Part shown: positions 10,128-40,126 of the stretch, piece after piece
How the letters are laid out: each line of letters starts with the position of its first letter
How positions within the stretch are numbered: the first letter of the stretch is position 1
From: Posidonia oceanica
Taxonomy: Eukaryota; Streptophyta; Magnoliopsida; Alismatales; Posidoniaceae
Direction: 5' to 3'
DNA: 64,000 nucleotides
Assembly: GCA_037176725.1 (NCBI GenBank)
Contig: JAZBRS010000026.1
Coordinates: 97,571,501 to 97,635,500 of the forward strand
Made by a program: the position numbers and the translations under genes
Notes under the pieces: generated by a model
Database searches by the model: none
What the model saw: the letters and a program-made list of their open reading frames with translations, nothing else
Told to the model about the DNA's origin: nothing

Positions 10128-11330
10128 ATGGGCTTCCCTACCCTGTTGACTCCAGCACACTGCTCGGAGATCCTGCGAGAATGGATCGGCGAGCTTACCC
10201 AAGAAGACTGCGAAAAGCTGCGCCTGTGGGGCATTCCAACCAAGCTACTGAAGGCTGCTGATGTGGAAGTAAGCCGCCATCTTCTGTGTGCCGCCGCAAG
10301 GTTCTGGAAACCGGCACACCACGTCTTTCGCTTTGGCAGAACTGAGCTAACACCCACACTGGAAGAAGTGCGTCGGATCTGCGGCTTCTCCAAGATCATG
10401 GGGCCGCCTATCTTCATAAGGCGTGATGGATACCTTGAGGTCCTGAGCCAACTGACTGGGCTCCCTACTCGAAGCTGCCAACAAAGGCTGATTTGCACTA
10501 GTGGACTTGAACCTATGCTTCGCCTAGCGCACTTTGATGATGTCATGAAGAAGTGCGTCGAACTCGGAGATGAGCTGTGGCTCCGAGGGTTTGTCATCCG
10601 CTTCCTGGGCGAGCTGATCTTTACTCATGGCCGACTGACAGTGGCCATTGAGGTTGCAGAAATAGCACTTGCTGTGGTGACCCGGCACATGGACCTGGCA
10701 CCAGTTGTTCTGGCAGAAACATACCACGGGTTGGACCGCATCTCACATCGCTGCCGCCACTTCCATGGCTGCGGGGCACTTATACAAGTCTGGCTAGCTG
10801 CACACTTAGAGATGAACCTTCTGCGCCCCCAGGTGCATGCCTTTGAAGCCTACTGCAGCAGTGCCCGTGCCAAGACAGTCAAAAGCGTCAAAGAAGAGTA
10901 TGAAAGGCTATCAGCACTGACTGACGACGCGGTAACCTGGCATATCATCCCCTCCGTAGCCGAGCCATTCACTATCTTCTTCAGCGCGCACGACACGCGG
11001 CTGATTGTACTACCAAGACTCACGGCAGGTGTGGAATACCATCTCATCAAGGTTATGCGCCTGTTTGGCTTCCAGCAGGGTGCCTTTGTTGACAGCACAG
11101 CGTCCGAGCTTCTTCAGGCATACCCTCTCAGCACAACTGCCCCAACAAAGAAGCTGGCCGATCTGATGCAGCATGGGGTGCGGTCAACAGACATCGCAGC
11201 TGCGAGAGGTGTAGGATGCACCCCTGAGTATGTGACTGAGGTCCAAGAGCTCTGGCCCATCAATGAAATCCCGCTAGGCGGCCCTCTATTCCCCGACTCT
11301 AGGCAGTCAAAGAAGGCCCGAACCGGCTAG
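10128..11330 (+). CDS. Intact plant-mobile-domain-like extra protein of P (DUF7745-type), 400 aa
   Basis: This is an uninterrupted 400-codon ORF in the 3' region of P, in the same sense as gag-pol. The start ATG 10128 is chosen because the protein aligns from there with the spliced M paralogue (MGFPTL against M-AFRTL). Upstream in-frame sequence has no counterpart. Conserved features include EVSRHLLCAAARFWKP, FRFGRTELTPTLEEVRRICG and FLGELIFTHGRL, a pattern typical of plant mobile domain/DUF7745 proteins. The C-terminus is basic (SRQSKKARTG). The codons flanking both M intron sites are joined directly here: after codon 1 and after 10787. The function is unknown; mobile-domain proteins occur in host silencing factors (MAIL1/MAIN) and in transposons. 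The family name is my recognition from pattern, not a search. Confidence 0.72.
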   Translation: MGFPTLLTPAHCSEILREWIGELTQEDCEKLRLWGIPTKLLKAADVEVSRHLLCAAARFWKPAHHVFRFGRTELTPTLEEVRRICGFSKIMGPPIFIRRDGYLEVLSQLTGLPTRSCQQRLICTSGLEPMLRLAHFDDVMKKCVELGDELWLRGFVIRFLGELIFTHGRLTVAIEVAEIALAVVTRHMDLAPVVLAETYHGLDRISHRCRHFHGCGALIQVWLAAHLEMNLLRPQVHAFEAYCSSARAKTVKSVKEEYERLSALTDDAVTWHIIPSVAEPFTIFFSAHDTRLIVLPRLTAGVEYHLIKVMRLFGFQQGAFVDSTASELLQAYPLSTTAPTKKLADLMQHGVRSTDIAAARGVGCTPEYVTEVQELWPINEIPLGGPLFPDSRQSKKARTG

Positions 11331-11887
11331 GACACTTGTGCAGCCGATATGTGGTTTCCTTTCAACTTGTGCTGTATATTTTGGCCTGACACAGGCATGT
11401 ACTCAACAGTTCCTTCAATGAAAAAGTGTTTTCTGCTGTCTGCTTGCACTTCAGGACACTATTTAATGCATTGCATGATCATTGCCCACCTCATCTTGAG
11501 CCCTCTGGCCAGACTTGCAGCCAACACAACGCAGGAAAGTCCTCAGCAGCCAACCCGGAGTCCAGAATCTCTGCAGACCCACGCCGTCAAGCCAAGCCAT
11601 CCAGTGTCCCCAGTTGAGTCATCTACGGGCTGGCACCCCCAACTGCTCGGCGATAGGTCCGTCAACCTGTCATCATCTTCGGGCTGGTACCCCGAACTAC
11701 TCATCTGACAAACACGTCAGTTTTGTCTTCATCCTCTGCTTTTGATGCCAAGGACACGCTGGCCAACCCCTGGTGTCATCTCGACACCAGGGGCATCTTT
11801 GGATCGCCCCTCGGTATCATTCTCCCCCTCTTTCCCCCATGATATTCCTGGTATCATGGGATGCTTCGCTCTCGCGAAACCCATTCC
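11331..11887 (+). other. P spacer between extra ORF and tandem array
   Basis: No supported gene. The part 11625-11880 contains GGGCTGGCACCCCCAACTGC and ACACCAGGGGCATCTTT. These match the reverse complement of repeated units at 24300-24890 in M, so this is a shared 3' module of both Tat elements. TTCAATGAAAAAG at 11415 resembles TTTCAATGAATATG after the M paralogue (32878) and may mark the 3' end of the extra gene transcript. Confidence 0.6.
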
Positions 11888-12912
11888 TTTGCCGGCCGAT
11901 AAGTCCGATATCATATCATCTCTTTCCCTTTACTGGCCGATAAGTCCGGTATCTCATCATTCCCTCATCCCCTCTTTGCCGGCCGATAAGTCCGATATCT
12001 TATCATCTCTTTCCCTTTGCCGGCCGATAAGTCCAGTATCTCATCATTCCCTCATCCCCTCTTTGCCGACCGATAAGTCCGATATCTTATCACCTCTTTC
12101 CCTTTGCCGACCGGTAGGTCCGGTGTCTCATCATTCCCTCATCCCCTCTTTGCCAGTCGATAAGTCCGATATCTTATCATCTCTTTCCCTTTGCCGGCCG
12201 ATAGGTCCGGTATCTCATCATTCCCTCATCCCCTCTTTGCCGGCCGATAAGTCCGATATCTTATCATCTCTTTCCCTTTGCTGGCCGATAGGTCCGGTAT
12301 CTCATCATTACCTCATCCCCCTTTTGCCGGCCGATAAGTCCGATATCTTATCATCTCTTTCCCTTTGCCGGTCGATAAGTCCGGTATCTCATCATTCCCT
12401 CATCCCCACTCTGCCGGCCGATAAGTCCGATATCTTATCATCTCTTTCCCTTTTCCGGCCGACAAGTCCGGTATCTCATCATTCCCTCATCCCCTCTTTG
12501 CCGGCCGATAAGTCCGATATCTTATCATCTCTTTCCCTTTGCCGGCTGATAAGTCCGGTATCTCATCATTCCCTCATCCCCTCTTTGCCGGCCGATAAGT
12601 CCGATATCTTATCATCTCTTTCCCTTTGCCGGCCGATAAGTCCGGTATCTCATCATTCCCTCATCCCCTCTTTGCCGGCCGATAAGTCCGATATCTTATC
12701 ATCTCTTTCCCTTTGCTGGCCGATAAGTCCGGTATCTCATCATTCCCTCATCCCGTCTTTGCCGGCCGATAAGTCTGATATCTTATCATCTCTTTCCCTT
12801 TGCCGGTCGATAAGTCTGGTATCTCATCATTCCCTCATCCCATCTTTGCCGACCGATAAGTCCGATATCTTATCATCTCTTTCCCTTTGCCGGCCGAAAA
12901 GTCTGATATCTT
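11888..12912 (+). repeat. 87-bp tandem array, nearly 12 copies, hairpin units
   Basis: Units start every 87 bp (11888, 11975 ... 12845) with TTTGCCGGCCGATAAG. Each unit has two related halves of about 41 and 46 bp. The halves carry GATAAG..CTTATC or GATAAG..CTCATC inverted arms around a short loop. Because 87 is divisible by three, the array creates a long open frame (11742-13100) that I regard as an artefact. It lies upstream of the P polypurine tract, in the position of the 68-bp array of M. Confidence 0.93.
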
Positions 12913-12999
12913 ATCAATCTCTCCTTTTTCTTATCAATATCAATCATCAATCTCTCCTTTTTCTTATCGATATCAATCAATCAATCAATCAACCACTGC

Positions 13000-13940
13000 T
13001 CTTTCCGATTGATAGGACCGTAAACTATCATCTTGGGCCGATCCCCGATCTGGCTCGCAGTTGTGTTATACGGCTGACATCCAGTAACTGTCCCTTGTAA
13101 TTGCACCTTCCAGTTGATAGGACTGTAAACTATCATTCTCTGGCTGATGATCCAAAACTCATCCTTGGCTGATACCCAAAACTATCACTTGCAATTACGT
13201 TATACGGCTGACATCCAGTAACTGTCCCTTGCAATTGCAGCTTCCAGTTGATAGGACTGTAGACTATCGCTCCAGTTGATAGGACTATAAACTATCGTTC
13301 CAGTTGATAGGACTGTAAACTATCGTTCCGGTTGATAGGACCGTAAACTATCACCTGCAATTGCATTATACGGCTGATATCCAGTAACTATCCCTCATGA
13401 TTGCGCTTTCCAGTTGATAGGACTGTAAACTATCGTTTCAGTTGATAGGACTGTAAACTATCGTTCCAGTTGATAGGACTGTAAACTATCGTTCCAGTTA
13501 ATAGGACTGTAAACTATCACTCGCAATCATGTTATACGGCTGATATCCAGTAACTATCCCTCGCAAATGCCCTTTCCAGTTGATAGGACTGTAAACTATC
13601 GTTCCAGTTGATAGGACTGTAAACTATCGCTCCGGTTGATAGGACCGTAAACTATCATTCTCTGGCATTTGCGTTATACGGCTGATACCCAGTAACTATC
13701 CCTCATGGTTTGTGCGTTCCAGCTGATAGGACTGTAAACTATCGCTTCCAGTTGATAGGTCTGTAAACTATCGTTCTAGTTGATAGGACTGTAAACTATC
13801 CCGCACAACCATGTTATACGGTTGATATCCAGTAACTATCACTCACAACTGCCTCCGGTTGATAGGACCGTAAACTATCACTTCCAGTTGATAGGACTGT
13901 AAACTATCACTCTCGGTTGATAGGACCGTAAACTATCCGG
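13000..13940 (+). repeat. 28-bp hairpin repeat array with interspersed 35-bp units
   Basis: About 20 copies of CAGTTGATAGGACTGTAAAC followed by TATC occur, often spaced by 28 bp. They are broken by units reading TATACGGCTGATATCCAGTA. Each main unit has GATAG and CTATC arms that can pair across about nine bases. It directly follows the 87-bp array, whose arms have the same GATAxG/CxTATC theme, suggesting a common origin. Confidence 0.88.
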
Positions 13941-14495: not shown

Positions 14496-17400
14496 TGTTG
14501 ACACCCCATCTTGACAGGCTTGGACCATTTGGGACCTTTTGGTGACTTCTGGATCTAAACCTAGGTCAAAACTACACCAACCCTTTTCATCTTACCCTTC
14601 AAAACAAGCCTAAACTTGACCTAAGCCTACACCCATTTCCCAAGCCCAAAACCTGCCCAAAAACCATAGGAAAACCTATCACTCCCAACTTAGCAAACCT
14701 ACCCAAACACTTAGAAATTTTCAACCCAAAACTATTCCAAAAAACCCTAGAAAATCTAGGTAAAACCACCCTTTTTCTACACCTCAAAACCCTTCCAAAA
14801 CCTTCTCAAAACTAAACCAAATCCCCAGAAGCAACACTAGAAACCCTAGGCTACACATTCCCCAATTTTCACCCCTTTTCAAAACCTTTAAACCCTCCAT
14901 TTACCCAAATTATCGTTTTCTCTCTCCAAGATTATTCTTTTCTCTCTCCTCTCTCTCTCCTGATTATCCTCCTCCTTTTCATCCCCTTCTCTCCTTTTTT
15001 CTTGCCTGGCTGTGGGCCCCCCTTGTGCATCTATCTCTTCTCAATCTTATTCTTATTTTTATCTTATTTTTAGCATTTTCCTTGACTTTCAAAAAATTAT
15101 TTTCTTTCAACTCCTCTCTTTCCCTTTTATTCTTCCTTTTTCCCTTTTCCTCCTCCTTCTCCTCTTCTTTCTTTCTTTTTACTAAGCCCCTAAAAAATCC
15201 TTAAAAACCTCTAAAAACTTTAAAACAAAACGAAAACAAACCAAAACCCTAAGAAAAATAATTAAAAATATTAAGCAAACAATTAAAAACCTAAACCCAA
15301 CCAAATCTAACTAAAGCCAAAAAACAAGAATGCAAGCTAAAAAATACAAAACAAACAAAGAGAAAATGCTGTAAAATCAAGGAAAAAAACCGAAATGTAA
15401 TCAAAACAGCTAAAAGTAAAATCCTATTAAAAACAACCAAGAAAACAAACCCTAAAAAAAAGAAAACACTTAAGAAATGCAAGGGCTAATAATTAAGGAG
15501 GAAAAAACCTAACTTAACAACTCTCAAAAGAAAAATTGAAAACATAATTAAAAAATAATAAAACAAACAATCAAAATTTAAGAACAGCTAATTAAAAACT
15601 TAACAAGAAAACCTAACCTAAGAAAAAAAATGCTAAAAGAATTTAACAAACGAAATTAAGAAAAAGCAAATCAAAGAAGACCTAAGAAGAATCCTAAAAG
15701 ACTAAAATCAAAAGCCAAAACTCACTCTAATTAATCTAAAAACAAACCTTAAAAAATCCTAATTAACATCCCAAGTACTTAACAAGAAAAACATAATTAA
15801 AAAACAACTTAAAAGACTTAACAAACATTTAATCAAAATAAAAAACAAATTAAAAACAAAGAAAACCCTTAAAACCCTAATCAAACCCAAAATCCCTCTA
15901 AACCTGATTAACCAACCGAAAACAGTCATTAAAAAATTTTAATCACGGTCCTAACTTAAAATACAATCACTCTAATAATTTTACCTATTTTTATTTTATT
16001 TTTATCCAATTTATTTCTCCTCTCTTTCCCTTCCATTTCTCTCTTTCTTCCTATCTTTCTTTCTTTTCTTCCTTTTCTCCTGCTGGGCCCAGTTCGGCCC
16101 CTTCCACCCCCTTCTTTCTTTTCTTTCGTTTTTCTTTTTTTCAGCTCGCGGCCCGGCCCACGCCTTCCACCCTCCTCTTCCCTCCTTCTTCTTCTTCTTC
16201 CTCTTCAACTTCTTCTTCTCCTTCCCGTGATCTTCTTTAAAATTTAACTTCGCTTCTCCCTCCCGATCACCTCAGCACCAGTTCGCCTCTCCTCTCTCCG
16301 CTCTCTGCGGATCTTCCAGGAGGGCATTTACTGCCCGTCTCCTCGCCGATTGCCTCTCCATCAGCTGCAGTGTTCGGCGCCGGTGGGATTTCAAAATCCA
16401 CAGCGCGCCCAGCAGCTTCCTCCTCTGTTAAAACCAGCACCTCTTCTCCTCCTTCCAAGCCTTTTTGTCGTCCGAGAGAGAGCAAAGGAATCCAGAGAAT
16501 TCCCAGCGCCTAAATCCCTTCCTCCTTCCACTGCAAGAACCAGCTCTTCCCCCTCTTCTTTCCCGACCACATTAGAGCCTCCATCAGCCCTCAAACTTCC
16601 TTCAATTCATCCCCCAAATCCACCCAGAATCCCAGCATTCCTTCTCTTCCTTCCACGACCAGAGCCATCCCTGAAATCACCCTCATTCACCGGATATCCA
16701 CAGCAGCAACCCAACGCCACTCCTTCCAAAACTGCCACCTCTACTGAGCCCCAAATCCGCCCAAACTTCTCCCAGCAAACCACCAGAACACCACCATCTC
16801 AGGCCAACCAATCCCCAGTCTTCTCCCCCCTCACAGGCCAAGATCCCCACAACAAACACCTGTGACCTTCCTCTGCCAGAAGATCACCCCACCTGGAAAC
16901 TCCACCCACAGGTCCCCACGATCCAATTTAACCACCCAAAACCCTTCACCCAACCTCCAGCAAGTCGCCGGCACCCTCCAATTGATCCAGAGAGTGGCGG
17001 ACATCCACCCCCACCTCCGGCATCCAGCTGTGAACCCACTGAACCGATTTGTCGCGCCGGTCTTCGCAGCTGCCCTCCGATCATTCAGCAAGCTCCGGAG
17101 CGTCGCACTGAGCAGAACCGGACGCCCAGAAGCAACTGACGACGCCCACAGCAGCCAGACCGAGCTAGTCGACTTCTGCAAAGTCGACCGACGTCGGGAG
17201 GACTCCTCAGCCACGGAAACAGGTAGCTCTCTTCATCCCTAGGTTAGTCTCCCTCTCCTCTTGCTTTTCTGCCCATCAGCCTGGGATTTCTCTCTCTCCT
17301 GCGCCGAGTCAATGCTGGGTCAACTCTGTCTTCTCCGACGAGCATCGAGCTCGTCCCGCCGCTCCGGTCTGCAGAACGTCGCTCCAACCGGCGCCCCAGC

Positions 17401-17699
17401 TCCGCACGGACCCTAGGAGTATGTCCCTGCCGTCAGAACTCGCCGACGCTGCACTGATCGACCGGCCTGCCTCCGAGTAGGCCTGCAGACCTCCGACGTC
17501 TCCTCCGGCTTGCTCCAGGCAGCGTCGCTGCTTGCCGATGCTGCTCTGGTCTCCGTCAAGCTCTGGTGAAGCCCGCCCGCCGGTCTGCGCCGCACTAGCA
17601 CCCCCTCTGCTCCCCCTGTCGGCCACTGGTAGCAACTACTACAGTTGTCGACGATCTGTTGTTACTGTGCTTTTATTTTTTGCTATCTATGCTATTTTA

Positions 17700-18650
17700 C
17701 CAAATATTGCATTTTTGGTCTCAGTTCTTGCTTATTTGCGTTCAGGTCCGTTATTTGATTAAATCTGTTTATTTCTGAGTTAAAACCATATAAAATTGCA
17801 TGAAAAATATGTAGTTCTCTTTATTTGCATGTCAGTCCTTTTACTGTGCTTTCCTTCAGTAATAAATTTGATTTTGGCCCTCCAGCTTTTGATTATTGCA
17901 TTTTAGTCCTGCTGCTGTTTAATTTGATTTAATGCACTGAGTTTGCCATATAAAATTGCATTTTCGGTCCTTATTGTTTTCTGTAATTGCCATTTAATCC
18001 TCTGTCCTGTTAACTTAGCTTTTATTTTTCAATTTTTGCTTGCTGCATTGCATTATTTCCCCCCTGTTTTCTGATTTTTGCATATAGATCCTTCCCTAAT
18101 GCACAGTAGTCATTTAAATGCATATTTTGCTTATAAAATTGCATTTTTGACCCTGCATAATTTGAAAATTGCACATTAGCCCTTTGCCTATCATTTAAAT
18201 GCATATTTTGCTTATAAAATTGCATTTTTGACCCTACATGATTTGAAAATTGCACATAGGTCCTCTGCATGCTTATAAAAATCATTTAAATGCATATTTT
18301 GCTGATAAAATTGCATTTTAGACCCTACATGTTTGGAAAATTGCATATAGGTCCCCCATCTGCATTCCTAGACCTACTAGACCCCTGTTTTGCCGGAAAA
18401 ATTGCATTTTGGACCCTAATGATTTTAAAATTGCATCTTAACTTGCCACATGATTTCAAAACTTGCCCTGATGCATATTCATCTTGGAAAATTGCATTTT
18501 AGACCCTGCCTTTTGTAAAATTGCATGCAGACCCTCTTTTTTTTCAAAATCCTTGCATGAAAGCCCCAAACTTTCCAAAATCTTTGCATTTAGACTTCCA
18601 TCCTTTCAAAAATTGCATTTGAGACCCCAATTTTCTGAAGAATCACCCTT
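17700..18650 (+). repeat. Degenerate TGCATTTT..GACCCT repeats in P LTR
   Basis: Many imperfect units contain AAAATTGCATTTT and GACCCTNNATG. The clearest tandem part repeats CATTTAAATGCATATTTTGC at 18111, 18192 and 18283. The solo LTR has the same zone in reverse complement (about 35870-36800), and N has an analogous one (57100-59200). Confidence 0.8.
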
Positions 18651-19389
18651 AAGCCTTTTCTTGCATTCTGCATGCATTGCACTCATGCATTCTAGTTTTT
18701 TGCATCCTTTGCACACACTCAAGCATCATTAGCTCCCATTCACAAGGGAGAACCTGTTTGCACACCTCTAGGACCCCCTGTACACTTAGATCCATTCTTC
18801 TCCCCTATTCTGGCCCTTCTGCCTTGAAGCTGGGATATCTTCCAATCCGACCGTTGGATCTTCTCAAACAAGCTACCTGGACGACTCCGGCGGAGCGCTC
18901 TTCAGCATGGACCAAGCAGATCTCAGATCATGCCTCAGATTTTCCAGGTACGTCCTCCTGAACCCCTGCACAGCATTCATTTGCATACCATTTGCATTGC
19001 ATGCATCGTTTTTGCTTTTTGTTTCCTCGAACATGTAGAATAGGACTTCCTCTTCTTATCTATCAATTCTGCTCCCCCTTTCGCGTATTCCCAAGTGTTT
19101 TGTGTCGTGTTTCCCCTGGATTCACCACTTATTGCGACTTTCTTCACCTTTTCCACGATCCGATTGCACCGCGAGCTTTGGGCAGCGTGCGAGACACATC
19201 GTGGGGCGGTTTAGTGGGAAATAGTCGCAAAACAGTGGTAATCCCTCCACTTGCTTATTTTCCCCGTTGTAGGTCTTCACACCTACTCTACGTGGCCCTT
19301 AAACAGTGTCTGTTCCCACACACGCACTGTTTGCCTCTCCTTTCACTTCTCTTGTTCTCTCTCCTTGCATTTGCATCTGCATGGTTTTG

Positions 19390-19740
19390 CCGAGGTTTTA
19401 TTCCGTCTTTTGGCACCGTTTTGCGTGCCCGCTCCGTCTTTTGGCACCATTTTGCGTGCCCGCTCCGTCTTTTGGCACCGTTTTGCATGCCCGCTTTGTT
19501 TTTGGCACTGTTTTGCATGCCCGCTTTGCTTTTGGCACCGTTTTGCGTGCCCGCTTCGCTTTTGGCACCGTTTTGCGTACCCGCTCGATCTTTTAGCACC
19601 GTTTTGCGTGCCCGCTTCACTTTTGGCACCGTTTTGCGTGCCCGCTTCATCTTTTGGCACCGTTTTGCGTGCCTACTTTGTTTTTGGCACCGTTTTGCGT
19701 GCCCGCCTTGTCTTTTGCGCCGTTTTGCGTGCCGTTCTCG
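19390..19740 (+). repeat. 31-32-bp minisatellite in P LTR, about 11 copies
   Basis: The units read TTTTGGCACCGTTTTGCGTG plus CCCGCTC/TTC. The array generates long spurious open frames on both strands. The solo LTR carries the homologous array at about 34970-35180, with fewer copies. Confidence 0.9.
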
Positions 19741-20067
19741 TTTCTTGCTTTGTTTTACGCTGTTTTCTCTTGCATGTCGCCTGCATTGCTTGGTTTTACC
19801 TTCGTTTTGCTTTTCCGCTTGCATTTGCATATAGGGCAGTGATGCTTACTGCCTGGAGTTCTCACGAGCCAGGTTTTGCCCGGTTCGGAACACAGACAGC
19901 GTGGCTGAGCACTTAGAGAGCACGTTTACTTCCCTGCTTTGCATTCTCTCCACTTAGAGCACACCTTGAGCATTCATTTAGGCATTCATAGGCACATAGG
20001 CATCCAAATCTGCATTTCCCTGCGTATGCGAGTGTAAGCCTAGAAAGACCGATTCTCAGGCGTGTCG

Positions 20068-20105
20068 GGGGTGCCTAACACCTTCCCCGCGCGTAACAGG
20101 AGTCC
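20068..20105 (+). promoter_or_regulatory. Conserved Tat LTR motif (TGCCTAACACCTTCCCC...GTAACAGGAGTCC)
   Basis: The same motif occurs at a similar distance from the LTR 3' end in the other Tat LTRs of the window: 21409-21455, 34591-34632, 50210-50252 and 56819-56860, all on the minus strand. Such conservation between otherwise different LTRs suggests a functional RNA or 3'-end formation signal. The role is my inference. Confidence 0.6.
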
Positions 20106-20285
20106 TTGCCCAGTCTTTTGGCCCGTAATGACCATATCGCCCTTATCCTAGGCATGAATCATCTCATTTGCATGTATTTGCATTTGTTTTCCTTTGCATT
20201 GCTTTGCTTTGCATTTCTTGCTTGGTTTTGCGTGTTAATTCACGCATTTCCCCCGGTTTTCCTTGTCTCCCGATAATAGACACGG

Positions 20286-20297
20286 TGGCGACTCTGA
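20286..20297 (+). other. Primer-binding-site-like sequence buried inside P LTR
   Basis: TGGCGACTCTGA lies 119 bp before the LTR end. It matches the start of the true M primer-binding site (TGGCGACTCCGCTGGGGA). The solo LTR has it at 34398-34409. Confidence 0.6.
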
Positions 20298-20439
20298 TTT
20301 GTCTTATCTTCTTCCTTTCTTACCTTTTCTCCTCTATTTTGTGTGTTCTCGAGTTGAGCCCTCCTCCTCGGACCTCGCCGCTAATAGTAAGCCTGATTCT
20401 GATTAGGATTACTACATATATTATCCATTTGAGCCCCAT

Positions 20440-20885: not shown

Positions 20886-20890
20886 CTTAC
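20886..20890 (+). repeat. Target-site duplication of M, left copy (CTTAC)
   Basis: CTTAC directly precedes TGTGACC, the left end of M. The right copy is at 52588-52592 after GTCTACA. Confidence 0.8.
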
Positions 20891-23148
20891 TGTGACCATC
20901 TCTTTCGACGTACGACTCGGGGGCCGCTGCCAAAGCTCGCAGACGCCCGACCGTAGAGAATGAGGGCCACAGCTAATGGTGTATCCGAGGAAAGTTCGAC
21001 TCGAGGAAGAAAACACCAATCAAATGATAAGTGACGATAAAAAGAGAAAAGGAATGAGATCAAGTCTAATTTCCCCGACGGAGTGGCCATTCTTATGTGA
21101 CCGTCTCTCGTGGACGACACGGGGGCCGCTGCCAAAGCTCATAGACGCCTAGTCGAAGAGAAAGAGGGCCACAATTAATGGCGTATCTGAGGCGGATTCG
21201 ACTCGATAAAGAGAATAAATCACCAATAATCGACGAAATCAGCGAATATGATAAACAACAAAAAAAGGGGGAGTCGCCACCTAGTCTAATTGAGAAAAGC
21301 CGGAAGACAAGGAAAATCAGATGTAAACTAATAAAAATGAAAGGAACCCAAAGTGGATCCATGCAAAACGGATGCGACACTGGGTCATTACGGTCCAGAG
21401 ATGGGTAAGGACTCCTGTTACATGTAGAGAAGGTGTTAGGCACCCCCGACATGCCCGAGGAGCGGCCTTTTCTAACGTCATTCCGCTCATAGTGTGGCTC
21501 AATGTAGGCCAAAGGCCAATTAGTGTATGCTCTAGCAAAAGGAAACATGCTATGATAATGCAAGAAGGCGAAAGGAAAAGCCTCAAATAGACATGCATAA
21601 AGGTTAAAAGAAACCAAGGAAAGTAGCTACATAAAGCTAAGAGGCAAACATGCATAAGGGAAACAAGTGCAAGAGGATAGGATTCAGATAAACACTCATA
21701 CATGCTGAAAGAAATCAGGTAAACGACAATATAATGCTGGAAAGTAACATACATAATGTGAGGGAAATGTAAAGCATATAGGCTTAAATAAACATTGCTT
21801 AACACTAAAAGGAAACAGAAAAGTAATTAAAGGATGCCTAAATGTAAACATGCATGAGGAGTAGCTAATACGAGAGTGAAAGGCTCTGTCCACATCTGTA
21901 GAGGCTACTGTTAAATACGCGAGAGTCCCACGCGGGACCTCCACGCGGGAACAGTCCGCTTGTCCAGTGGAAAGTCATGGCCAAATGGGAGGCCCTCCTC
22001 AATTCAATTCGGTATAGAACCGGTTGAATGATGAGGAGGAGGTATCCCGGAACAATAATATGCAATAACATCAAAGAAACAGCCATAAACAAAGGTCGGA
22101 AAGGGGCTGGGAACTCTGCCCGATATCACAGTCAAACACGCGGGAGGTCTACGCAGGACCTCGGCATGGGAATGGCCAGTGGCCCAACAACTAATAGAAA
22201 GTAAAGAAATCAGATGGATGATGAGGAGGGGATGCTCGACAACAATAATATGCTAAACTATAAAAGGAACAGACACAAATAAGGGTCGGAAAGGGGCTGG
22301 GAACTCGACCTGATGTCATGGTCAAACACACGGGAGGTCCACGCGAGACCTCGGCGCGGGACCGGCCAGTCAGACAGAGGACCTTCATCGCCAGATTCCA
22401 GGCCCGATGCTTAATGAATTGCAATGAAACCAGTTGGGGAAGCAAGGTGGTGTACCAGGCTACCCAATCGGGGTGCAGATGCAGAGCGGCATCGCCCGAA
22501 TAGCCACCCCCTTCTCAACAGTATTGTGCCGGTAACTGCGCGTCTCTGCTGGCCAAAGAGGCGGCTTGGAGGGCGCTGTCGGCCATGGGCACACTAAGGA
22601 GGCTAGAGGCGAGTGCGAGGGACCTTCTCAGAGGCTTAGAGCGGTGGGGCAAGGTGGCTACGTGCGCGACGGCGCAAGGCCGTGCGCGAGCCGTCTGCCC
22701 TCCGCAAGAGGCGGCGGAAAAGAAATGAAAACAGGCAATGCAGCTAAATAGAAATGCGAATAACACTTAGGAAATAAGCATACAACAACTAGAAGCTATT
22801 CTAAGCTAACTAAGGGACGAACGCTTGCCTGAGATGCGCTGCGGGGGATGTCTTCTCCAGCGACGGCACTGCTGCAGATGCACAGTTGGACGAAGGCTAC
22901 GAAGCTCAAGGAAGTTGGCACTCTCTCTCACGGGCTCAGGGGAAGGCTTTGGAGATGGTGGAACTCAGGTGGTTGTCTCGACAGTGAAATGGTTCACCGG
23001 AGATGGATTCTCAATCCAAGGACGCTGGAATTGAGAAGTTTGGGGGTCAGGAAGCTCTGGGAAGTTCAGGGGATTACTCAAAATTCAAGAGGATGCTCAG
23101 GGAAGCCAGAGAAGCCAGAGAGAGGGGCTCGGCTGGTCGGGAGCACTG

Positions 23149-23158
23149 TTTTATAAGT
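23149..23158 (-). promoter_or_regulatory. TATA box of M 3' LTR
   Basis: On the minus strand CACTTATAAAACAGTG lies just downstream of the U3 repeats. The 5' LTR has CCTATAAAATAG at the same place (51980-51991). Confidence 0.6.
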
Positions 23159-23351
23159 GGAGGAAACGGTGTAAACCGTTGGTGCGGATCTGGATTTAAA
23201 TCGGGTGGTTGAGATGTTGGTTGAAGATCGACGAGTGGAATCGGTTGGGATGGAGGGCTGGATGATTCAGGTGTCCGGAGGCACAAGCTCAGATCAGCGG
23301 GAGCCAATGGCAAGTGAGGAAAAGGTGGGCCAAGGTGATTGGTCCCCCTGA

Positions 23352-23555
23352 TTTTTGCCACTGACGCAGGACAAAACGCAGGAGCTCCACGCGAGAGCTT
23401 GGCGCGATTGTCAGTCTGTCAGTTTTCGCTACCGACATAGGACAAAACGCGGGAGCTCCATGCGGGAGCTCTACGTGAGTGTCAGAGTGTCAGTTTTTGC
23501 CACTAACATAGGACAACAAGCAGGAGCTCCACGTGGGAGCTCGACGCGAGAGTGA
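23352..23555 (-). repeat. 70-71-bp direct repeats in U3 of M 3' LTR, 3 copies
   Basis: Units start near 23352, 23422 and 23494 (plus-strand reading TTTTTGCCACTGAC..GGACAAAACGC). Each carries a GGGAGCTCCACGCGGGAGCTC-like core. The three copies sit upstream of the LTR TATA box, an enhancer-like position. The 5' LTR has them at about 52185-52365. Confidence 0.82.
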
Positions 23556-23780
23556 TCCCATCTGTCTAGCTGCCTCACCTTGTGATCCTGTTTCTTTGGT
23601 TCGTGGACCATCCAGGGCTATGGTTTTGTGCAATTTGCAGTGGTGGATTTATTGGGATGTGATTGGTGGAGTTTTGTTGGGTTTGGGTTTGGGGTTTCAA
23701 GAAAGGGTTGGGGCCACCTCGTCCGTGCGCTTTTGGGAGCAAACAACCATCGCCCGACTTCCAGATTTGGGGTGTCTACA

Positions 23781-24240
23781 AATGCCCCTCCCTGAGCTAG
23801 GTCGAGGGGACCAAGGCCGTTGCTCAGGGTTGACAAAGACACCCCACCTGAAGTCGGTGGGAGAAATGTTGCTGTCGACGTGAGTCACTTATTCGGCGGA
23901 TGCACCAAAAGATCGTGACTCGTTGCCGCAATGCAAATGCGAATGCCAATGTGAATGCAAATGCCAATGCAAAATGTGAAAGTTAGGATGCAAAGTTAGT
24001 GTTAGTCTTGAGATGCTGATGGTATGCTGGCGCATGCTGAGCGGTGTATGGCTCAGACGTGGGGTACCGTTCGCCGAGCTTCGCTCTAAGCGAGGGCGAT
24101 GCAGATGCTGTGCGCTGAGCAGTGCACGGCTTAGACGCAGGGTGCCACTCGCCGAGGATTGCTCTAAGCGAGGGCGATGTAGTGTATGCAAATGATGCAA
24201 ATGCAATGCGCAATGAGTTGACGGACTCACCACCGGATAG
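23781..24240 (-). other. M pre-LTR module with hairpin arm and polypurine tract
   Basis: The polypurine tract AGGGAGGGGCATT (23793-23781 on the minus strand) abuts the 3' LTR. AGACACCCC at 23837-23845 pairs perfectly with GGGGTGTCT at 23769-23777 in the LTR start. The first 150 bp match the P module at 14345-14495. Beyond are ATGCAAATG-type repeats (23930-23990) and two copies of a unit of about 75 bp with CTCTAAGCGAGGGCGATG (24050-24180). No gene is seen. Confidence 0.82.
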
Positions 24241-24299
24241 TTCGAGTTATCGGCCCGAGGGGAAAGGACGATGACCTAGGACAACTGAAAAAAGATGCC

Positions 24300-24900
24300 T
24301 TAGTATCGAGTAACAATGCCAGGGGGTAGCCGAGGTGTTCCTGGCGAAAAAAGAGAGGTGCGAGACAACTATGACGGGTGTCAACCGAGCAATTAAGGGC
24401 TGCCAGCTCGAAGACGGGAAAGATCCTTCAAGACAGTGGAAAAAAAAGATGCCCCTGGTATCGAGAAACGATGCCAAGGGGTAGCAAAAACACTCTAGAC
24501 ATGGTGACAGGTGTCGACCGAACAGTTAGGGATGCTAGCCCGAGCAGAGAAGCTCCAAACACTTTGACGGATGTCATCCAGGCAGTTAGGGCTACTAGCC
24601 TGAGCAAACATTTTGACGATTGTCGACCGAGCAGTTAGGGCTGCTAGCCCCAAGAAGTGAAAGATCCTTCAAGACAGTGGAAAAAAGATGCCCCTGGTAT
24701 CGAGAAACGATGCCAAGGGGGAGCAAAAACACTCCAAACATGGTGACGAGTGTCGACCGAACAGTTAGGGATGCTAGCCTGAGCAGAGAAGCTCCAGACA
24801 CTTTGACGGATGTCATCCAGGCAGTTAGGGCTGCCAGCCCGAGCAAACATTTTGACGGTTGTCGACCGAGCAGTTAGGGCTGCCAGCCCGAGCAGAAGGG
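24300..24900 (-). repeat. 241-bp tandem duplication of a mixed repeat module in M
   Basis: AAGATCCTTCAAGACAGTGG recurs at 24420 and 24661, giving two units of 241 bp. Inside are shorter repeats with TGTCGACCGAGCAGTTAGGG and CTGCTAGCCC. Part of the module matches P 11625-11880. No gene is supported. Confidence 0.85.
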
Positions 24901-25852
24901 CTTGTCCTCGATCAAGGAGGCAAGCAGGCGGGACTTCGTCCGTCTGGAATGAAGACGCACGAGAGAGGCTTGTCCTCGACCGAGGGAGCAAGCAAGCAGG
25001 GCTCCGTCCGTCCAGAACAAAGACGCGCGAGAGAGGCTTGTCCTTGACCAAGGGAGCAAGCAGGCGGGGCTTCGTCCGTCCGGAACGAAGACACATGAGA
25101 GAGGCTTGTCCTCGACTAAGGAAACAAGCAGGCGGGACTTCATCTGTCCGGAACGAAGACGTGCAAGAGAGGCTTGTCCTCGATCGAGGAAACAAGCAGG
25201 CAAGACTCCATCCATCCGGAACGAAGACGTGTGAGAGAGGCTTGTCCTTGACCGAGGGAACAAGCAGGTGGGACTCCGTCCATCCGAAACGAAGATGCAC
25301 GAAAGAGGCTTGTCCTCGACCGAGGGAGCAAGCAGGCGGGGCTCCGTCCGTCCGGAATGAAGATGCACGAGAGAGGCTTGTCCTCGATCGAGGAATCAAG
25401 CAGGTGGGACTCCGTCCATCCGGAACGAAGACACACGAGAGAGGCTTGTCCTTGATTGAGGAAACAAGCAGCTGAGACTTCGTCCGTCCAGAACGAAGAC
25501 GCGCGAGAGAGGCTTGTCCTCAACCGAGGAAACAAGCAAGCAGGACTCCGTCCGTCTGGATCGAAGACATGCGAGAGAGGCTTGTCCTCGACCGAGGAAA
25601 CAAGCAGGTGGGACTCCGTCCGTCCGGAACGAAGACATGCGAGAGAGGCTTGTCCTCGACCGAGGAAACAAGTAGGTGGGACTCCTTCTGTCTGGAATGA
25701 AGACGCGCGAAAGAGGCTTGTCCTTGACCGAGGAAACAAGTAGGCAGGACTCTGTCCGTCCGGAACGAAGACGCACGAGAGAGGCTTGTCCTCGACAGAG
25801 GAAACAAGCAGGCAGGACTTCGTCCGTTCGGAACGAAGACACGCGAAAGAGG
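24901..25852 (-). repeat. 68-bp tandem array, 14 copies, hairpin units
   Basis: Plus-strand units start every 68 bp with CTTGTCCTCGACC (24901, 24969, 25037 ... 25785). CTTGT-CCTCG and CGAGG-..-ACAAG form a stem across the ACC loop. Because 68 is not a multiple of three, all frames are sampled, and the array yields open frames up to 251 codons on both strands that I consider spurious. It is the positional counterpart of the P arrays but has a different sequence. Confidence 0.93.
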
Positions 25853-27278
25853 CTGAAATGTGATAAGTTTTGGACTTATCGACCGCAAAGATAACGGGAA
25901 TACCAATACCTGGAGGTTTGGCAGAGGTCCAAAGACGGTCTCGTGACAGTTAGGGGTGTCAGCCTGAAGAAGAAATCCAGGAAGCGGGTGCGCTCCGAAG
26001 CTGATGGCTTGTGACTGCATCGCCTTGAGGGGCGAAACTGCAGCTTCTATTTTGGTAGGGGCTTTCATGCAAATCTCTCAGTCTGTGGTGCGTGGCAGCT
26101 TCGTTCGGCCAATCCTCCTGAAGAGGTTCAGATTGCCTGATATAACTGTAGGGGTCTCTCTGTAATTTGTCCAAATTGCAAGGTTCGCTGCCCGTCCCGG
26201 GCTATAGTGACCTGACCAGGTCTTGTTCTGATTCCCTTGTGACCACAAAGGATCCTGCCGTGGCTCGGTTGGAAATCGGAGCTGATTTGCCGTTCCTGTG
26301 AAAGCCGGGGGCTTATCTGTAATTTCTACAAACTGTGATATCTTCTGTCCATCTCGGACTATTGTGACCTGACCAGGTCCTATTCTGATTCCCTTGTGAC
26401 CACAAAGGATCCTACCGTGGCTTAGTTGGAAACCGGAGTCGATTTGCCGTTCTTGTGAAAGCTAGGGGCTTATCTGTAATTTTTGTGAACTATGATAGAA
26501 TTAACTTGCAGGCTAATGGATGCTACCGTTCTGTTTGTTCGTCCAGGGCACTTATGACGCGACAAACATTGACGTGCTGTTGTGAGGGCTCTGCCTTAGG
26601 CTGTGGCCATTCCCGGTGCTTGTGCAGAAGCTTAGGGCCTATGTGCAATTTTGCAAAACTGCAGGACTCTGAAGTGAATTTCAATGTTCTGGGAGTCTCC
26701 TTGGTGATGTCCACCTGTACTGGGCCCCGTGACAATTTTGTCAAATAGAGGGATCTCTGATTGGTTGCTGCAAAATCAAAGTGTAAAATGCAAATTTTCT
26801 AGGTAAATTGCGCTTTAGTCCCTAAAGAGATTTGCCGAGAATGCCAAAGGTTTTTAAAACCTGGTGGGTCCCACCAAGGTAACTGCCGGCAACCATTTCT
26901 AGGCCCTGAGGGTGCATCCCTTCATTGGCAACCAACAACTTATGGGCACTATTCCTTTATTTCATTTCATGCCACATATTTGCTAAGTTCATGATTTGCA
27001 TTTTTTCAAAAATTTTGTTTCAAACACAAAAGCCGTGTCCAGGGCTTTCTTCCTCATTCTTCTCCTCATTTCTCAAGCTCCAACCGTCCTTTCGTCTCCC
27101 CTCCCCCTCTGTGCAACGGCGGGTGTGGTGTCACCCATGAGATCAAGGGCAGCGGCATGGGAGGCATAGAAGCTTGCAAAGCACTTCCGTGGGAGGACCT
27201 CCGCGAGCACGGGGCGCGGGATCTGAGGCAGGGCTGATCTCCGGCGGTAGTGGGGATTCTCCGGCGACATCAACAAAA
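25853..27278. other. M spacer upstream of the antisense mobile-domain gene, with 152-bp repeats
   Basis: No supported coding sequence. GATAAGTTTTGGACTTATC (25862-25880) is a hairpin like those of the P array. Two units of about 152 bp start near 26206 and 26358 (GTGACCTGACCAGGTC..GATTCCCTTGTGACCACAAAGGATCC), each ending in GGGGCTTATCTGTAATTT. GGGCCTATGTGCAATTTTGC at 26634 resembles the degenerate LTR repeats of the P family. The last 200 bp before 27279 is GC-rich and may be promoter or 5' UTR of the gene beginning there. Confidence 0.6.
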
Positions 27279-30200
27279 ATGGTATGCCTCAGATTCCTCT
27301 CTTCTTTTTGCTTTTTGTATGCCATCCTCCCCTCTCTCTCCATCTCTTCCGAGGCATCGGCGGGCTGGTGGTACTGCCGGTAATGGATTGTTCGGGCCGT
27401 GAGGGCTCGAATGGCTGCTTGAAGTGGTGCCGACGGCAATGCTTGCGGCATGAGGGGGTGTTTCTGCCGATGGTACTTGCAGCACTAAGGGCTCGGCTAA
27501 GGTTTTTGTATGCCATCCTCCCCTCTCTCTCCATCTCTTCCAAGGCATCGGCGGGCTAGTGGTACTGCCGGCAATGGGTTGTCCGGGCCGTGAGGGCTCG
27601 CACGGCTGCTTGAAGTGGTGCCGGCGGTAGTGCTCGCGGCATGAGGGGGTGTTTCTATCGATGGTACTTGCAGCACTAAGGGCTCGGCTGAGGGTAGCTC
27701 GGCACCGTGGTTGGTGGCTTGTGGCTGTAGTGCTCGGCCAGGGGGTGGTTCTGCCGATGTGGAGGCACGGCTGTGCAGGTGTTGGCCGTCGGTGGGTTGG
27801 GTTCCCACTCCATTTTTCTTGTCTGAAATCACTGTATGAAGCCTTGATGATATCATTTTCCTTGGGTTCACCACATGCCATGCTACTGATAATTTTTGTT
27901 TAGCTATGTTTGCAATGTGCCATGCTTGTTTTTTTTTTATTTACTGTTTGGCTATATACCATGATTGATATATGCCATGCTTAGTTCATTTTCAAGATCA
28001 AATGATGATTTTTTTGATATGATCTGAATGCCATGAACAGACTTGTGTATACCATCAGATCTGTGCCTGCCTTCCTGATTTTATTTTTTATTTTTTTATA
28101 TATGCTGGATTGAATGCCCTCCTTGTCTGAACGTTGATCTGAATGTGCCATGAATAGGCTTGTTTATACATGATTTAAATCAGCATATTGCCTTCCTGAT
28201 TTGCTTGTATGCTATGCCGGCTGTAATGATTCTTCAACTAGATTTCTGATTTTTCCTTGTTGAATGTGGCATGCTAACTTGGCCAAATGACTTTGCATTT
28301 CAAATTCTGAATTTGCCTTTATATTTGACTGCCATGAACTGTGCTCTGACTTTTCTGTCAAACCTGGGGATGTTGTGCTTGATCTGGTTGCATTTCTAAA
28401 TATCAGTATTTGTTTAAATACCTGATAAAGCATGCTTGTACTGCCAATTGCTTGATTTACATGCACCGGTGATGGTCTTATGGCATGCCTGTTGTTTGCA
28501 TTTGTGTGTGCATAATACTGCTCATGTTGGGCATTATTCCGTGAAATAAATGCTGTTGTGTGTTTTTTCTTGCATTTAGAATATGATTTGCTCTGAGCCT
28601 CCTGACTTTTGGCTTTGCAGTCTAGTTCAAGGCGAGCGGGTGAGAGCGACGCCTCGAGCTCGAGGTCTTGGGGACCGCAAGCCTCGGGATCCCAGGTGTC
28701 TGGGGGCACTTCCGACTCGGATGACTCACGAGAGGGTTCCGCTAGTCCAGGTCCGACCATTCCCTTAGAGGTAGACTCAAAACCCAGCTTTTCGATCTGT
28801 ACTTTTGTTTCTGCTTTCGTCTGCTTCTGATTCATGCTTCGAACTTTTGGCAGGAAGTGGGAAAGTATGATGGACACCTGCTTAGCGGGGACCACATCTG
28901 CGACCAGGACTGGTTTGAGGTAAGGCAACTCTTCCCTTGTTAGTCACTTGCTTTGCATGCGCATGGGCCCTTTCTGACCTGTTCTGCTGCTTGTATAGGA
29001 TGGGAACTCCCTCCAGGTGATGCGGTGCAGCTGGGCACCGATGTTGGCTCATTTTCACTGTCTGCCAGATTTTTTGCGAGACTTTTTGCTACATCAGAGT
29101 CCCTTTGGCAGCTTTCTGAGGATCCCAGCCAACCATGGCCACTACAACTTCTTCCGGGCTTTGGCTGAGAGGTGGCGGTTCGAGACGCACACCTTCCACT
29201 TCCCATACAGGGTGATGACAATCCTGCCCGAGCACTGGGCCATGCTGTCTGGAATGACTTCTGGAGGAGAGCCCATAGTGGGCAAGGGCGTCCTGGGATA
29301 CGCCAGAGTTCCTGAGTTGCTAGGGAGGCCAACGCCGGATCAGACGTGCTCAACTTACAACTTCCGCGCATCATGGCTGCGAGAGTGGAGCAGGATTAGG
29401 CAGGACTCGGCCCTTGGCTCAGCAGAGGTAGCTTTTGTCCTTCGCCACTTCCTACTAAACCTGCTAGGGGTCGTCTTCTGCGACGTGTCCGGATACTGCA
29501 TCCACACGGATTGGCTCGTCTACCTAGCCGACTTAGGCGAGCTTTGGCGCTATGACTAGGGAGGTGCCAGCTATGCATATCTCCTGTGCGGCCTGGACGA
29601 CGTGGTTCGCAAGAACCATCAGTCGTACGTGGGCTTGTACCCCCTGATTACTGTAAGTATTAAGTTTATTTCTGTTCTGCATTACTTTCAACTCTATTTA
29701 TTTATTAGCTATACTGACATATTTGCCTGCTTGCCTTGCAGTACTGGGCGATGGAGCACTCTTGCGGGGACATTACTTCTTCCGCCACTGTCCCGAGCTT
29801 CTTCCACTTCCCCGGCAGTGGTGCGAGCCGGATCACATCGCGGCCTCGGGTGTCTATGGGTATGAGTTGTACCAGTACCTCCTTGATATCATCCAAGCTG
29901 ACAAGGTGAGCTTTGAATTTCAGTTTGCATCTAGTGCTCCTAAACTGCTTAGAAAAACTGCTCTGATGATTGTTCTGTTTGCTTTCTGGTCGACTTGCAT
30001 CCTTTTCTGAGGTACGAGACCTTGGAGTGGGCTCCCCTGGTCTCGGGCCGGAGGCTGAGGAGAGTGCAGGTTCAGTTTTTGTACCTCAAACGATATGCTT
30101 ACTACCTTCCCGGGCGGGTTCATCACCAGTTCACTCGGGTGTTCAGCATCCCCAGGCCGCTGCCTGCTGATATGGTGTCCAAGATTCTGACTCGGGCTGC

Positions 30201-30919
30201 TGCCAGGACTACCTTGGCTACATCAGCAATGGCCCAAAGCCGATTCACCATCCAGGAGGCCTCCCGTGACGAGTACATGGATTGGTTCGAGCGGGTTGGC
30301 AAGCCGCACTTGTTCCCGGAAGATCTTCGGGAGGGACAGATGCAAATGTAGTACAATGAAGGCTGGAGTCAGGTAAAAGACTCTCAATACCGCTGTAGAT
30401 CTGATGAATGTAGTATCTGTCCTCGTATCCTGACTCTTTGACTTGAATACAGGCCTTCGAGGTGCGGCTGCGGGAATGGATGCGGCAGATGCGGGCAGCT
30501 CGGGTAAAATAGCTGTAGAAAAGCTTTTAATCTTTGCTTGTTGACGTATCTCTACCTGTTCTGACATATCTGGTTCTTTGGCACAGGCGAGGCAGTAGCG
30601 ACGGCTTCCAGAGGTACAAGCTTGCAAATAGCTTAACTTACCATAAATGCTTGCTAAATGTCTTATGTTTGTTTTTCAGGGGAGCAGTTCCCGACCGGCC
30701 ATCAACACTGAGTCCAGTGGGGAGTTCAGGGTGAACTTTGCCTTGGCAGATGTGTCGGATGCAGAGTCTCCTGCCGGGGAGTGTAGCATGGGGCCAGGTC
30801 CCTCACAGTCTCGACTAGTTGCTACGAGGCTTGCCAAGAGATTGAGAAGGAAGCAGGACAGGGAGGGCCTCCTGAGGATCCATGGCACCCCGCCTCCTGA
30901 TTCGTCTGAGGAAGATTGA
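27279..30919 (+). pseudogene. Nine-exon plant mobile domain gene (MAIN-like), antisense inside M, broken
   Basis: Predicted exons by GT..AG and frame: 27279-27281 (ATG only), 28621-28770, 28854-28919, 28999-29652, 29742-29905, 30012-30372, 30453-30503, 30587-30613 and 30680-30919 (TGA). Exon 2 is Ser-rich. Exon 4 carries the plant mobile domain (aminotransferase-like, MAIN-type): RALAERWRFETHTFHFPYRV, GMTSGGEPIVGKG and WLREWSRI. Exon 9 is polar and basic (RLAKRLRRKQDR). Stops are at 29557 (TAG where Trp is expected), 30349 and 30596. Exon 5 also appears frameshifted twice. The gene runs opposite to gag-pol, so M genomic RNA cannot splice its introns. Related proteins act in host silencing and occur in transposons; the role here is unknown. 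Confidence 0.75.
27317..27692 (+). repeat. 191-bp tandem duplication in intron 1 of the antisense gene
   Basis: GTATGCCATCCTCCCCTCTC recurs at 27317 and 27508, with the following sequence repeated through GGTACTTGCAGCACTAAGGG. The rest of the 1339-bp intron (27282-28620) is T-rich with repeated TGCCATG motifs and no supported ORF. Confidence 0.88.
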
Positions 30920-31386
30920 GTGCCTGTAGTCATCGAATCTTATTTGCTAGACTGTTTGCATTCTGTTTGCTTTCTTTATGCTTTATCCTCTGTCTGTACT
31001 CCTGATATTGTAAACTGAACTGAATATGGAATGCAAAAAATGCCCGGGGGGCTTTCTGGATAGCAAAACATGTGCATCTGTGCTTGTACTGAATGCATGT
31101 GTCTATATAATCAAGCAAGCGGCCTCTTCTGTAGTTTTCCGGAGGTTCCACAAGTTACTGGTGACTTAAGTTAACTTAAGTCACGGTCAGAATTTTTACT
31201 GTAAAAAGCACGGGAGCTCTACACGGGACCTGAACATGGGACCGCGATGCAGGACCAAGAGGCCTGTCCTTGTGTCACGTGATCTACACTTCTAGGGCAC
31301 CTATTTATAAGCTCCCCATTGCCCATGGGAGTGCTAGACGCCCCCCAAAAACCCTATGGCCACCTCTTCTCCCATTTTTCTCCAAA
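30920..31386 (+). promoter_or_regulatory. Intergenic region between the two antisense genes: palindrome, G-box, TATA
   Basis: A perfect 24-bp palindrome lies at 31161-31184 (GTGACTTAAGTT followed by its complement). A GGGAGCTCTACACGGGACC module follows at 31204-31236, similar to the M U3 repeats. A G-box CACGTG is at 31276-31281 and a TATA-like TTTATAAG at 31304-31311, about 80 bp before the ATG of the second gene. This looks like a private promoter for that gene. Regulatory function is inferred from motifs only. Confidence 0.55.
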
Positions 31387-32809
31387 ATGGTGGGTTTCTC
31401 TTGTTTTTTCTTGATTTCTTTGGTTGGCCCATCACACCCTAGGTCCCCATGGTGGGCGACTCCTGTCGGCTCGACGAGGCTGCTGTCCAGCCTTCCCCCT
31501 TTCACTCTTCTTTATTTGTTGGGCTCCATTCTGATCTTTGCATTTGTTTTGCGCAGGCTTTTCGCACTTTGGTCACCCTAGTTCATTACTCGGAGGTACT
31601 ACGAGCATGGATCAGAAGTCTCACTGCCGATGACCGTGAGATGCTGCAGCTGTGGGGTATTTCCTCCCAGACACTGAATGTAGCTGAGGTGGAAGTCAGC
31701 CGCCACCTCCTCTGCACTGCGGCGAGGTTTTGGAAGCCCTCATTCCACGTTTTCCACTTTGGTTTAGTGGAGATGACGCCCACCCTAGAGGAGGTGCGCC
31801 GGATCTGCGGCTTGTCACCATTGTTAGGGCCTGCTATGTTCATGAGACGCGAGGGCTATGCGTCCATCCTGTGTCAGCTGACGGGCCTCACTCCTAGGGA
31901 GTGTGTAGAAAGGTTGATCCGTACTGACGGGCCGATGCCTAGGATTCGCCTAGAATATTTTAAGCAGATGATCCCGAGGCGTGCCACCTTGGGCGCTGAG
32001 TTGTGGCTTAGGGGGTTCGTCACCTGCTTCCTTGGTGAGCTGATCTTTGGCCATGGCCAGCTGGCTATCGCCGTCGAGGTGGCCGAGGTAGCCTTGGCTG
32101 TAGTAACCCGGTAGATTGATCTAGCGCCGGTGATTTTGGCAATGACCTTCTGCGGGCTGGATAGGGTCTCACACCACTGTCGCCATTTCCATGGCTGTGC
32201 TGCTATGGTTCAAGTAAACTGCCCATTATAACTACCCAGATGGCCTAATCTGTTTCTGCTCTACTGACTCTATTATGCTCTTTCTTTCAGGTCTGGTTGG
32301 CCTGTCACATGGGAGCAATGGCTATCCGCCCTCAGCGTCCTGTTTTGAAAGCTACTGTCGCTCTAGGCATGCCCGGGCCGGAGGGGCTGACTAAGGACAC
32401 CGTGGTCTGGTGGATTCTCCCTACCGCGGTGGATCCATTTACCGTGTTCTTTAACGGAAACAACGCACAGTTGGTCGTCCTACTGGGGTTTACTAGGGGT
32501 GTTGAGTTTCATCCCATCCGAGTGCTGCGACAGTTCGACCTTCGCCAGGATGCATTCACTAAGGGCCACATGCCCGAGAGATTCCGGTCTTATCTGCTCA
32601 ATTCTTCAGTTATGACGGAGGAGCTAGCCTGCCTTATGAGAGGTGGATTCTGATCCACTGACATAGCTGCGGTGCCTAGCTTGGATTGTACTGCTGGATA
32701 CATCGCTGAGGTGCAAGCAACGTGGCCCATCCGTGAGGTCCCACCTAATGGTCTTCTATTTAGCGATGCCAGGAGCTCCAAGAGGGCGCGGCCTAGCTTG
32801 GATGGATGA
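31387..32809 (+). pseudogene. Three-exon DUF7745-type mobile-domain-like gene, antisense inside M, broken
   Basis: Exons are 31387-31389 (ATG only), 31557-32213 (219 codons) and 32291-32809. Introns are 31390-31556 (167 bp) and 32214-32290 (77 bp), both GT..AG. The protein is clearly paralogous to the P ORF at 10128-11330 (EVSRHLLCTAARFWKP, MTPTLEEVRRICGL, CFLGELIFGHGQL, C-terminal ARSSKRARPSLDG). In P the two exon joints are fused exactly and exon 2 has the same 657-nt length. Stops are at 32112 (TAG) and 32651 (TGA). Compensating frameshifts with a deletion occur around 32340-32400. It runs opposite to gag-pol. Confidence 0.8.
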
Positions 32810-40110: not shown

Positions 40111-40126
40111 ATACAGTTCCAGATCA

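Follow-up and report, generated by a model that had tools for sequence, protein, structure and literature searches.

Long terminal repeat (LTR) retrotransposons of the Ogre/Tat group carry an additional RNase H between RNase H and integrase, and 57% of Ogre elements contain an extra open reading frame (ORF) with the PMD domain (PF10536) (PMC6317226). PMD also occurs in Gypsy consensus sequences of ten plant species, or of 40 when no copy filter is applied (PMC9289625), and extra ORFs in both orientations, PMD in Ogre and a Grande antisense gene with its own promoter have all been published (PMC6317226, PMC11963269, PMC7264820, PMC9289625, PMC6431247). In Retand, Grande, RIRE2 and PvRetro13 the antisense accessory genes code for TRP28 or for further domains, unlike the PMD genes considered here (PMC11963269, PMC7264820); the first of these papers contains none of the terms "intron", "PMD" or "plant mobile domain", and the second goes no further than to call for a search for antisense and spliced transcripts. 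A PMD extra ORF is common to the described Ogre elements and to those reported below, whereas antisense introns, or two orientations with differing intron state, go unreported in the available part of PMC6317226. Neither an intron-bearing antisense PMD gene nor such a two-state pattern turned up in the literature searched, most subscription journals being outside the scope of that search. Here we describe a 64,000-nt stretch of the Posidonia oceanica genome (C25:97571501-97635500, hereafter the window; the genome comprises 2.96 Gb in 80 contigs) with two Tat-type LTR retrotransposons, the P element on the + strand and the M element on the - strand, whose PMD accessory genes, P and M, differ both in orientation relative to gag-pol and in the presence of an intron, a linkage that recurs in all of the loci scored across the genome.

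Both elements belong to Ty3/gypsy Tat (Ogre), with gag, protease, reverse transcriptase (RT)/RNase H and integrase between LTRs; Pfam matches were obtained for gag and RT in M, for RNase H in both elements and for the integrase core in P, with the P protease match just under the cut-off. Tat (Ogre) elements are also characterized by a primer-binding site complementary to tRNA-Arg. The P and M genes both match Pfam PMD (PF10536) and DUF7745 above the cut-off and so display the PMD extra ORF typical of Ogre. An earlier note on this DNA had proposed that the two genes are paralogues with a 657-nt segment in each, which the alignment bears out: P codons 2-220 align with M exon 2 gap-free over 657 nt, 435 of them identical, and the whole proteins are identical at 210 of 389 aligned residues. 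The exon 2 differences fall mostly at third codon positions (63/39/120 at the first, second and third), as after selection on the protein. The opposed orientations given there are likewise correct, gag-pol lying on the + strand in the P element and on the - strand in the M element (48278 to 40131) and both PMD genes on the + strand (M at 31387-32809), i.e. sense for P and antisense for M. M itself is a decayed copy: two in-frame stops interrupt it, and 11 codons are deleted from exon 3.

The two GT..AG introns that had been assigned to M could be followed into its relatives, which mostly keep both the position and the GT..AG ends. Intron 2 of M (GTAAACT..TTTCAG) corresponds to an exact 77-nt extra stretch, where P reads uninterrupted as CAAGTCTGG (CAA|GTCTGG, in frame CAA GTC TGG), so that the flanking exons are exactly fused in P at this joint; the absence would reflect loss of the intron. 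Its GT..AG ends, conserved position and precise absence from the paralogue are those of a spliceosomal intron, the acceptor AG having been lost in L030 and L039.

In a genome search with P, none of the 104 matches listed was long enough to accommodate intron 2, and the intron was absent from all 20 P-type loci fetched from that search (L010-L029). With P0012, a protein found by protein search that matches this genome at 100% and whose translation enters intron 2, all 150 matches listed reached at least residue 220, exon 2 ending at residue 215, and thus by eye run into the intron. Twelve M-like loci whose exon 2 has no stop (L030-L041) were picked from these 150 matches, and intron 2 is readable in 11 of them, L037 being broken there. 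The P0006 type forms a second intronless subfamily, none of its 121 matches listed having room for intron 2; the uniformity of these lists (104 for P, 150 for P0012, 121 for the P0006 type) is partly built in, as they favour query-like or uninterrupted copies. Loose first-look candidates numbered ~61,000 to 72,000 per genome search, not all of them true copies. In a further family, Q (P0017, P0022), intron 2 is visible in all nine loci fetched for it (L049-L057), and intron 1 is present at L044, the only locus inspected for it. Because Q and M-like copies share both the position of intron 2 and a TCTGCTC.ACTGAC-like stretch within it, the intron is old on the antisense side. The Q intron 2, parsed in seven copies, measures 72 or 75 nt; both lengths are divisible by three, and six of the seven introns are stop-free, so that an unspliced reading would remain in frame.

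When orientation was scored by the position and strand of the integrase, 22 loci were sense and without intron 2, 14 were antisense and with intron 2, and none was crossed, a further seven loci having no integrase in the fetched stretch. The integrase lies upstream on the gene's own strand (sense) in P, in 19 of the 20 P-type loci (none in range at L015) and in two of three P0006-type loci (L059 and L063; at L058 a P-family LTR occupies its place), and downstream on the opposite strand (antisense) in M, in eight of the 12 M-like loci (none in range at L030, L031, L037 and L039) and in five of six Q loci (none at L042). The fetched stretches covered 9.5 kb around the gene for the P type and, for the M-like loci, a span from ~2 kb before exon 2 to 2.6 kb past its end, where a sense integrase could be caught only at the last few hundred bases. 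Intron 2 of L048 was taken from the match length rather than read, the antisense sample is biased toward better-kept copies, and the scored loci, which are not independent, represent the P, P0006, M-like and Q types. Within this sample the link predicted by the earlier note between orientation and intron state holds for intron 2 in every scored locus, and neither sense copies with intron 2 nor antisense copies with its precise loss occur among the 36; the exact fusion that the note gave for joint 1 of P has the three letters ATG as its support.

Intron 1 is genuine in the antisense copies. Its donor, ATG|GT(A/G)GGT, is kept in 11 of the 12 M-like loci, the upstream sequence of L033 being unrelated, and its 3' end reads TGTGTAG or TGTGCAG in eight of the 12, the acceptor AG having been lost in L033, L040 and L041. 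Measured to the acceptor in 10 M-like loci, with L036 left out of the range, it is 167-175 nt long. All 11 M-like loci with the donor have a stop in the ATG frame within the intron, and none is found in M itself; splicing in copies such as L031 would yield MGFPTLVTP, which is the direct N-terminus of sense-type proteins such as P0011. Conserved GT..AG ends, variable length, internal stops and restoration of the frame thus mark intron 1 as a spliceosomal intron as well. A coding N-terminal extension was considered instead, the M frame being open through the intron and the ENA proteins P0054 and P0055 reading the intron end in frame, and was rejected on account of the stops in all 11 M-like loci measured and of a length that varies modulo three. 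A promoter-like stretch resembling that of M precedes the antisense gene in 11 of the 12 M-like loci (not L033). Its parts, some of them degenerate, are a ACTTAAGTTAACTTAAGT-like palindrome, a CACGTG-like box and a TATA-like box, and it lies inside the element's own 3' region.

To account for these two states we tentatively favour a flip of the gene followed by a splicing-linked loss of intron 2. In these Ogre/Tat-type elements the PMD accessory gene is located after pol and before the 3' LTR. In the M-like and Q subfamilies it forms an antisense gene of its own, with two spliceosomal introns and a promoter-like stretch upstream; in the P and P0006 types it occupies the same place in gag-pol sense and without intron 2, positioned like an env gene where the LTR transcript would read it. 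Most likely the gene flipped in the ancestor of the sense set, after which intron 2 would have been in a spliceable sense within the genomic RNA of the element, and reverse transcription of a spliced genomic RNA could have produced the copy from which the intronless lineage descends. The genomic RNA of antisense elements would contain the introns in reverse, and they would hence persist through successive rounds of copying. In the flipped gene a truncated, donorless intron 1 would remain, as would fit the P subfamily; intron 1 was probably not spliced out of that genomic RNA, and the start codon of P may lie in its old acceptor.

The surroundings of the gene speak to the flip. P 8872-9058 and pieces within 9479-9748 match M and 10 of the 12 M-like loci (L030 and L037 show no match), with order and element sense unchanged, P 9107-9178 matches M and seven of the 12, and a further match covers the part leading up to the 3' LTR (P 14241-14508 and M 24021-23768). 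Because these post-pol flanks are collinear, the gene occupies the same place in both kinds of element, with only the gene flipped. That two separate captures of a host PMD gene took place, one of genomic DNA (antisense, with introns) and one of cDNA (sense, intronless), would draw on the presence of PMD in the host genes MAIN and MAIL1 as well (PMC9289625); against it stand the shared place in the element, the collinear post-pol flanks and a P/M divergence of similar order in pol (73-77% nucleotide identity), gag (67-73%) and exon 2 (66%), and we regard it as very improbable.

A more serious competitor is capture in a single step, whereby the antisense gene's own spliced mRNA would have been reverse transcribed and joined into the element cDNA to give a sense intronless gene. 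It would cover orientation and intron loss together, and the antisense gene has clear splice sites as well as a promoter-like stretch; under a random capture, however, the gene would not be expected at the same place as in the antisense form. It predicts, moreover, that the 5' leader should precede the ATG of the sense genes, and the sequence found there in the P subfamily resembles the end of intron 1 instead. The last 10 nt before the ATG agree with the intron 1 end at a mean of 6.6 of 10 positions; the end of the 5' leader gives 3.3, and none of 118 other offsets exceeds 5.5, in an ungapped comparison in which the Q row ended three letters early. In a gapped comparison of three sense leaders with seven introns, the intron 1 end reached 6.38 and the 5' leader 1.74, with a mean of 1.17 and a maximum of 4.19 over 98 control offsets. 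When nine sense-type proteins were translated upstream of their start, their mean agreement with the translated intron end exceeded that at all 118 offsets, and over the last four codons P0014 fell below zero and P0006, P0007 and P0059 were barely above it. Two of the three P0006-type copies, L061 and L062, also point to the intron end, none of the 98 offsets scoring as high, with L062 at 7.54 versus 2.67 for the 5' leader. Because the sequence before the P-type ATG matches the intron 1 end and not the 5' leader, we prefer a flipped DNA segment over a spliced mRNA and consider the capture of mRNA rather unlikely. At joint 1 itself, P-type CAATGGG and the antisense acceptor CAGGG are two letters apart, and we lean toward a P start codon made inside the old intron 1 acceptor (CAG to CAATG). 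The claim that both joints of P are fused exactly is confirmed for joint 2 and stays doubtful for joint 1, where the ATG is its only support.

In a tree of exon 2, one branch separates the Q family, P0032 and the M-like loci from the remaining sense-type and intronless proteins, receiving 85% in the bootstrap, below the usual 95% threshold for this bootstrap, and 96% in the Shimodaira-Hasegawa-like approximate likelihood ratio test (SH-aLRT). Rooting with the Mucuna proteins P0019 and P0020 was not usable, as they attach through a branch of 1.55 and, for an outgroup this distant, the placement is not credible. Because the loci descend from two groups split by one branch, the linkage of orientation and intron state amounts to one contrast, and what the earlier note called a clean natural demonstration is not replicated, the single unrooted branch giving no direction of change. 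An unrooted tree also accommodates the reverse course, in which the ancestor was sense and intronless and the antisense gene, after a flip, gained a promoter, an upstream ATG with a donor (making intron 1 from the leader) and intron 2. The difference between CAATGGG and CAGGG can be read in either direction, and the in-frame, mostly stop-free intron 2 of Q would suit such a gain, which demands, however, the precise acquisition of intron 2 complete with donor, acceptor and a branch-like CTGAC. Precise intron loss through reverse transcription is a known and simpler route than gain, and we think gain improbable.

A flip with splicing-linked loss has evidence weighing against it too. In the P0006 type the outcome at joint 1 is mixed: in locus L060 the intron end reaches 3.00 (5 of 98 offsets reach it) against 6.25 for the 5' leader, and across 20 positions compared without gaps L060 and L061 fit the 5' leader better, which favours the capture of mRNA, and L062 fits the intron end better; the intron 1 end and the 5' leader are both pyrimidine-rich. 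The contrast is a single phylogenetic one of moderate support, unrooted and with too distant an outgroup. P-type and M-like copies could not be aligned around the gene farther than ~50 nt upstream or past its stop (two sense loci compared), which at this divergence is uninformative, and because of it neither end of the flip can be placed. The stretches fetched for Q covered the 3' side and those for the P0006 type the 5' side, so that a crossed copy there would appear as unscored. Finally, the splicing of intron 2 is predicted from the DNA sequence.

These elements provide a natural test of the idea that, when a retroelement replicates, introns are lost from a gene only if it has the same sense as the genomic RNA, in a family large enough that crossed cases, should they exist, can be sought. 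The same logic is familiar from retroviral vectors, in which the beta-globin gene has to be placed in reverse orientation because its intron 2 is needed (PMC6775231); it is engineered there, whereas it would be natural and evolutionary here. The partially spliced intron between gag-prot and RT of Ogre is a further spliceosomal intron in a Tat element, yet it is retained in sense orientation, contrary to the rule proposed for the PMD gene (PMC6317226). Our data suggest that Tat elements can carry their PMD accessory gene as a spliced antisense gene; an annotation based on long ORFs would fragment such a gene. More speculatively, and with some doubt, Ogre-type elements may have switched one accessory gene between an antisense, self-promoted, intron-bearing mode and a sense, LTR-driven, intronless, env-like mode, with orientation alone deciding intron survival, so that intron content would be a heritable record of past orientation, and one that lends itself to scoring in a very large number of copies and in different plants.

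Features of the P and M elements, given as positions in the window
Feature	Position	Strand	Remarks
P element gag-pol	22..8642	+	RNase H and integrase domains on +; start of gag-pol and 5' LTR precede the window
P post-pol stretch	8872..9748	+	pieces 8872-9058, 9107-9178 and 9479-9748 match most antisense-gene elements, in order and in element sense
P gene	10128..11330	+	PMD/DUF7745 accessory gene, sense, without intron 2
P element 3' LTR	14496..20416	+	TGTTGACACC...ATTACTACA; recognized through its match to the solo LTR at 34288-40105; 5' partner outside the window
M element between LTRs	20891..52587	-	target site duplication (TSD) CTTAC (20886-20890, 52588-52592); LTRs 90.3% identical
M element 3' LTR	20891..23780	-	
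M promoter-like stretch	31161..31311	+	palindrome ACTTAAGTTAACTTAAGT, CACGTG (31276), TATTTATAAG (31302)
M exon 1, coding part (ATG)	31387..31389	+	
M intron 1	31390..31556	+	167 nt
M exon 2	31557..32213	+	657 nt, one in-frame stop
M intron 2	32214..32290	+	77 nt
M exon 3	32291..32809	+	one in-frame stop, 11-codon deletion relative to P
Solo LTR of P family	34288..40105	-	in M element just after pol; TSD CAAGG
M element 5' LTR	49692..52587	-	primer-binding-site-like GTGGCGACTCCGCTGGGGA next to it

The two elements are separated by a gap of ~0.5 kb between the 3' LTR of P and the M element. The segment at 34288-40105 was considered as a part of the M element proper and rejected, being a solo LTR flanked by a separate TSD. 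Tandem arrays (11800-13853 and 24442-27693) occur in the 3' region of each element, with periods of 87, 166, 68 and 191 nt, among others, and a weak G-patch match, below the cut-off, lies between the protease and RT of the P element (3172-3885).

The open frame of P extends upstream of its ATG to 9855, giving a 91-codon open frame before the start codon (9855-10127). An AACAG|GTACCTTCAAG-like stretch within this frame is kept in most P-type loci and might represent a splice acceptor for an env-like subgenomic RNA. In the tea plant, 175 loci of phased small interfering RNAs (phasiRNAs) have been reported at PMD genes (PMC10673657), and sense and antisense transcription of elements such as these could, as a guess, feed PMD phasiRNAs.

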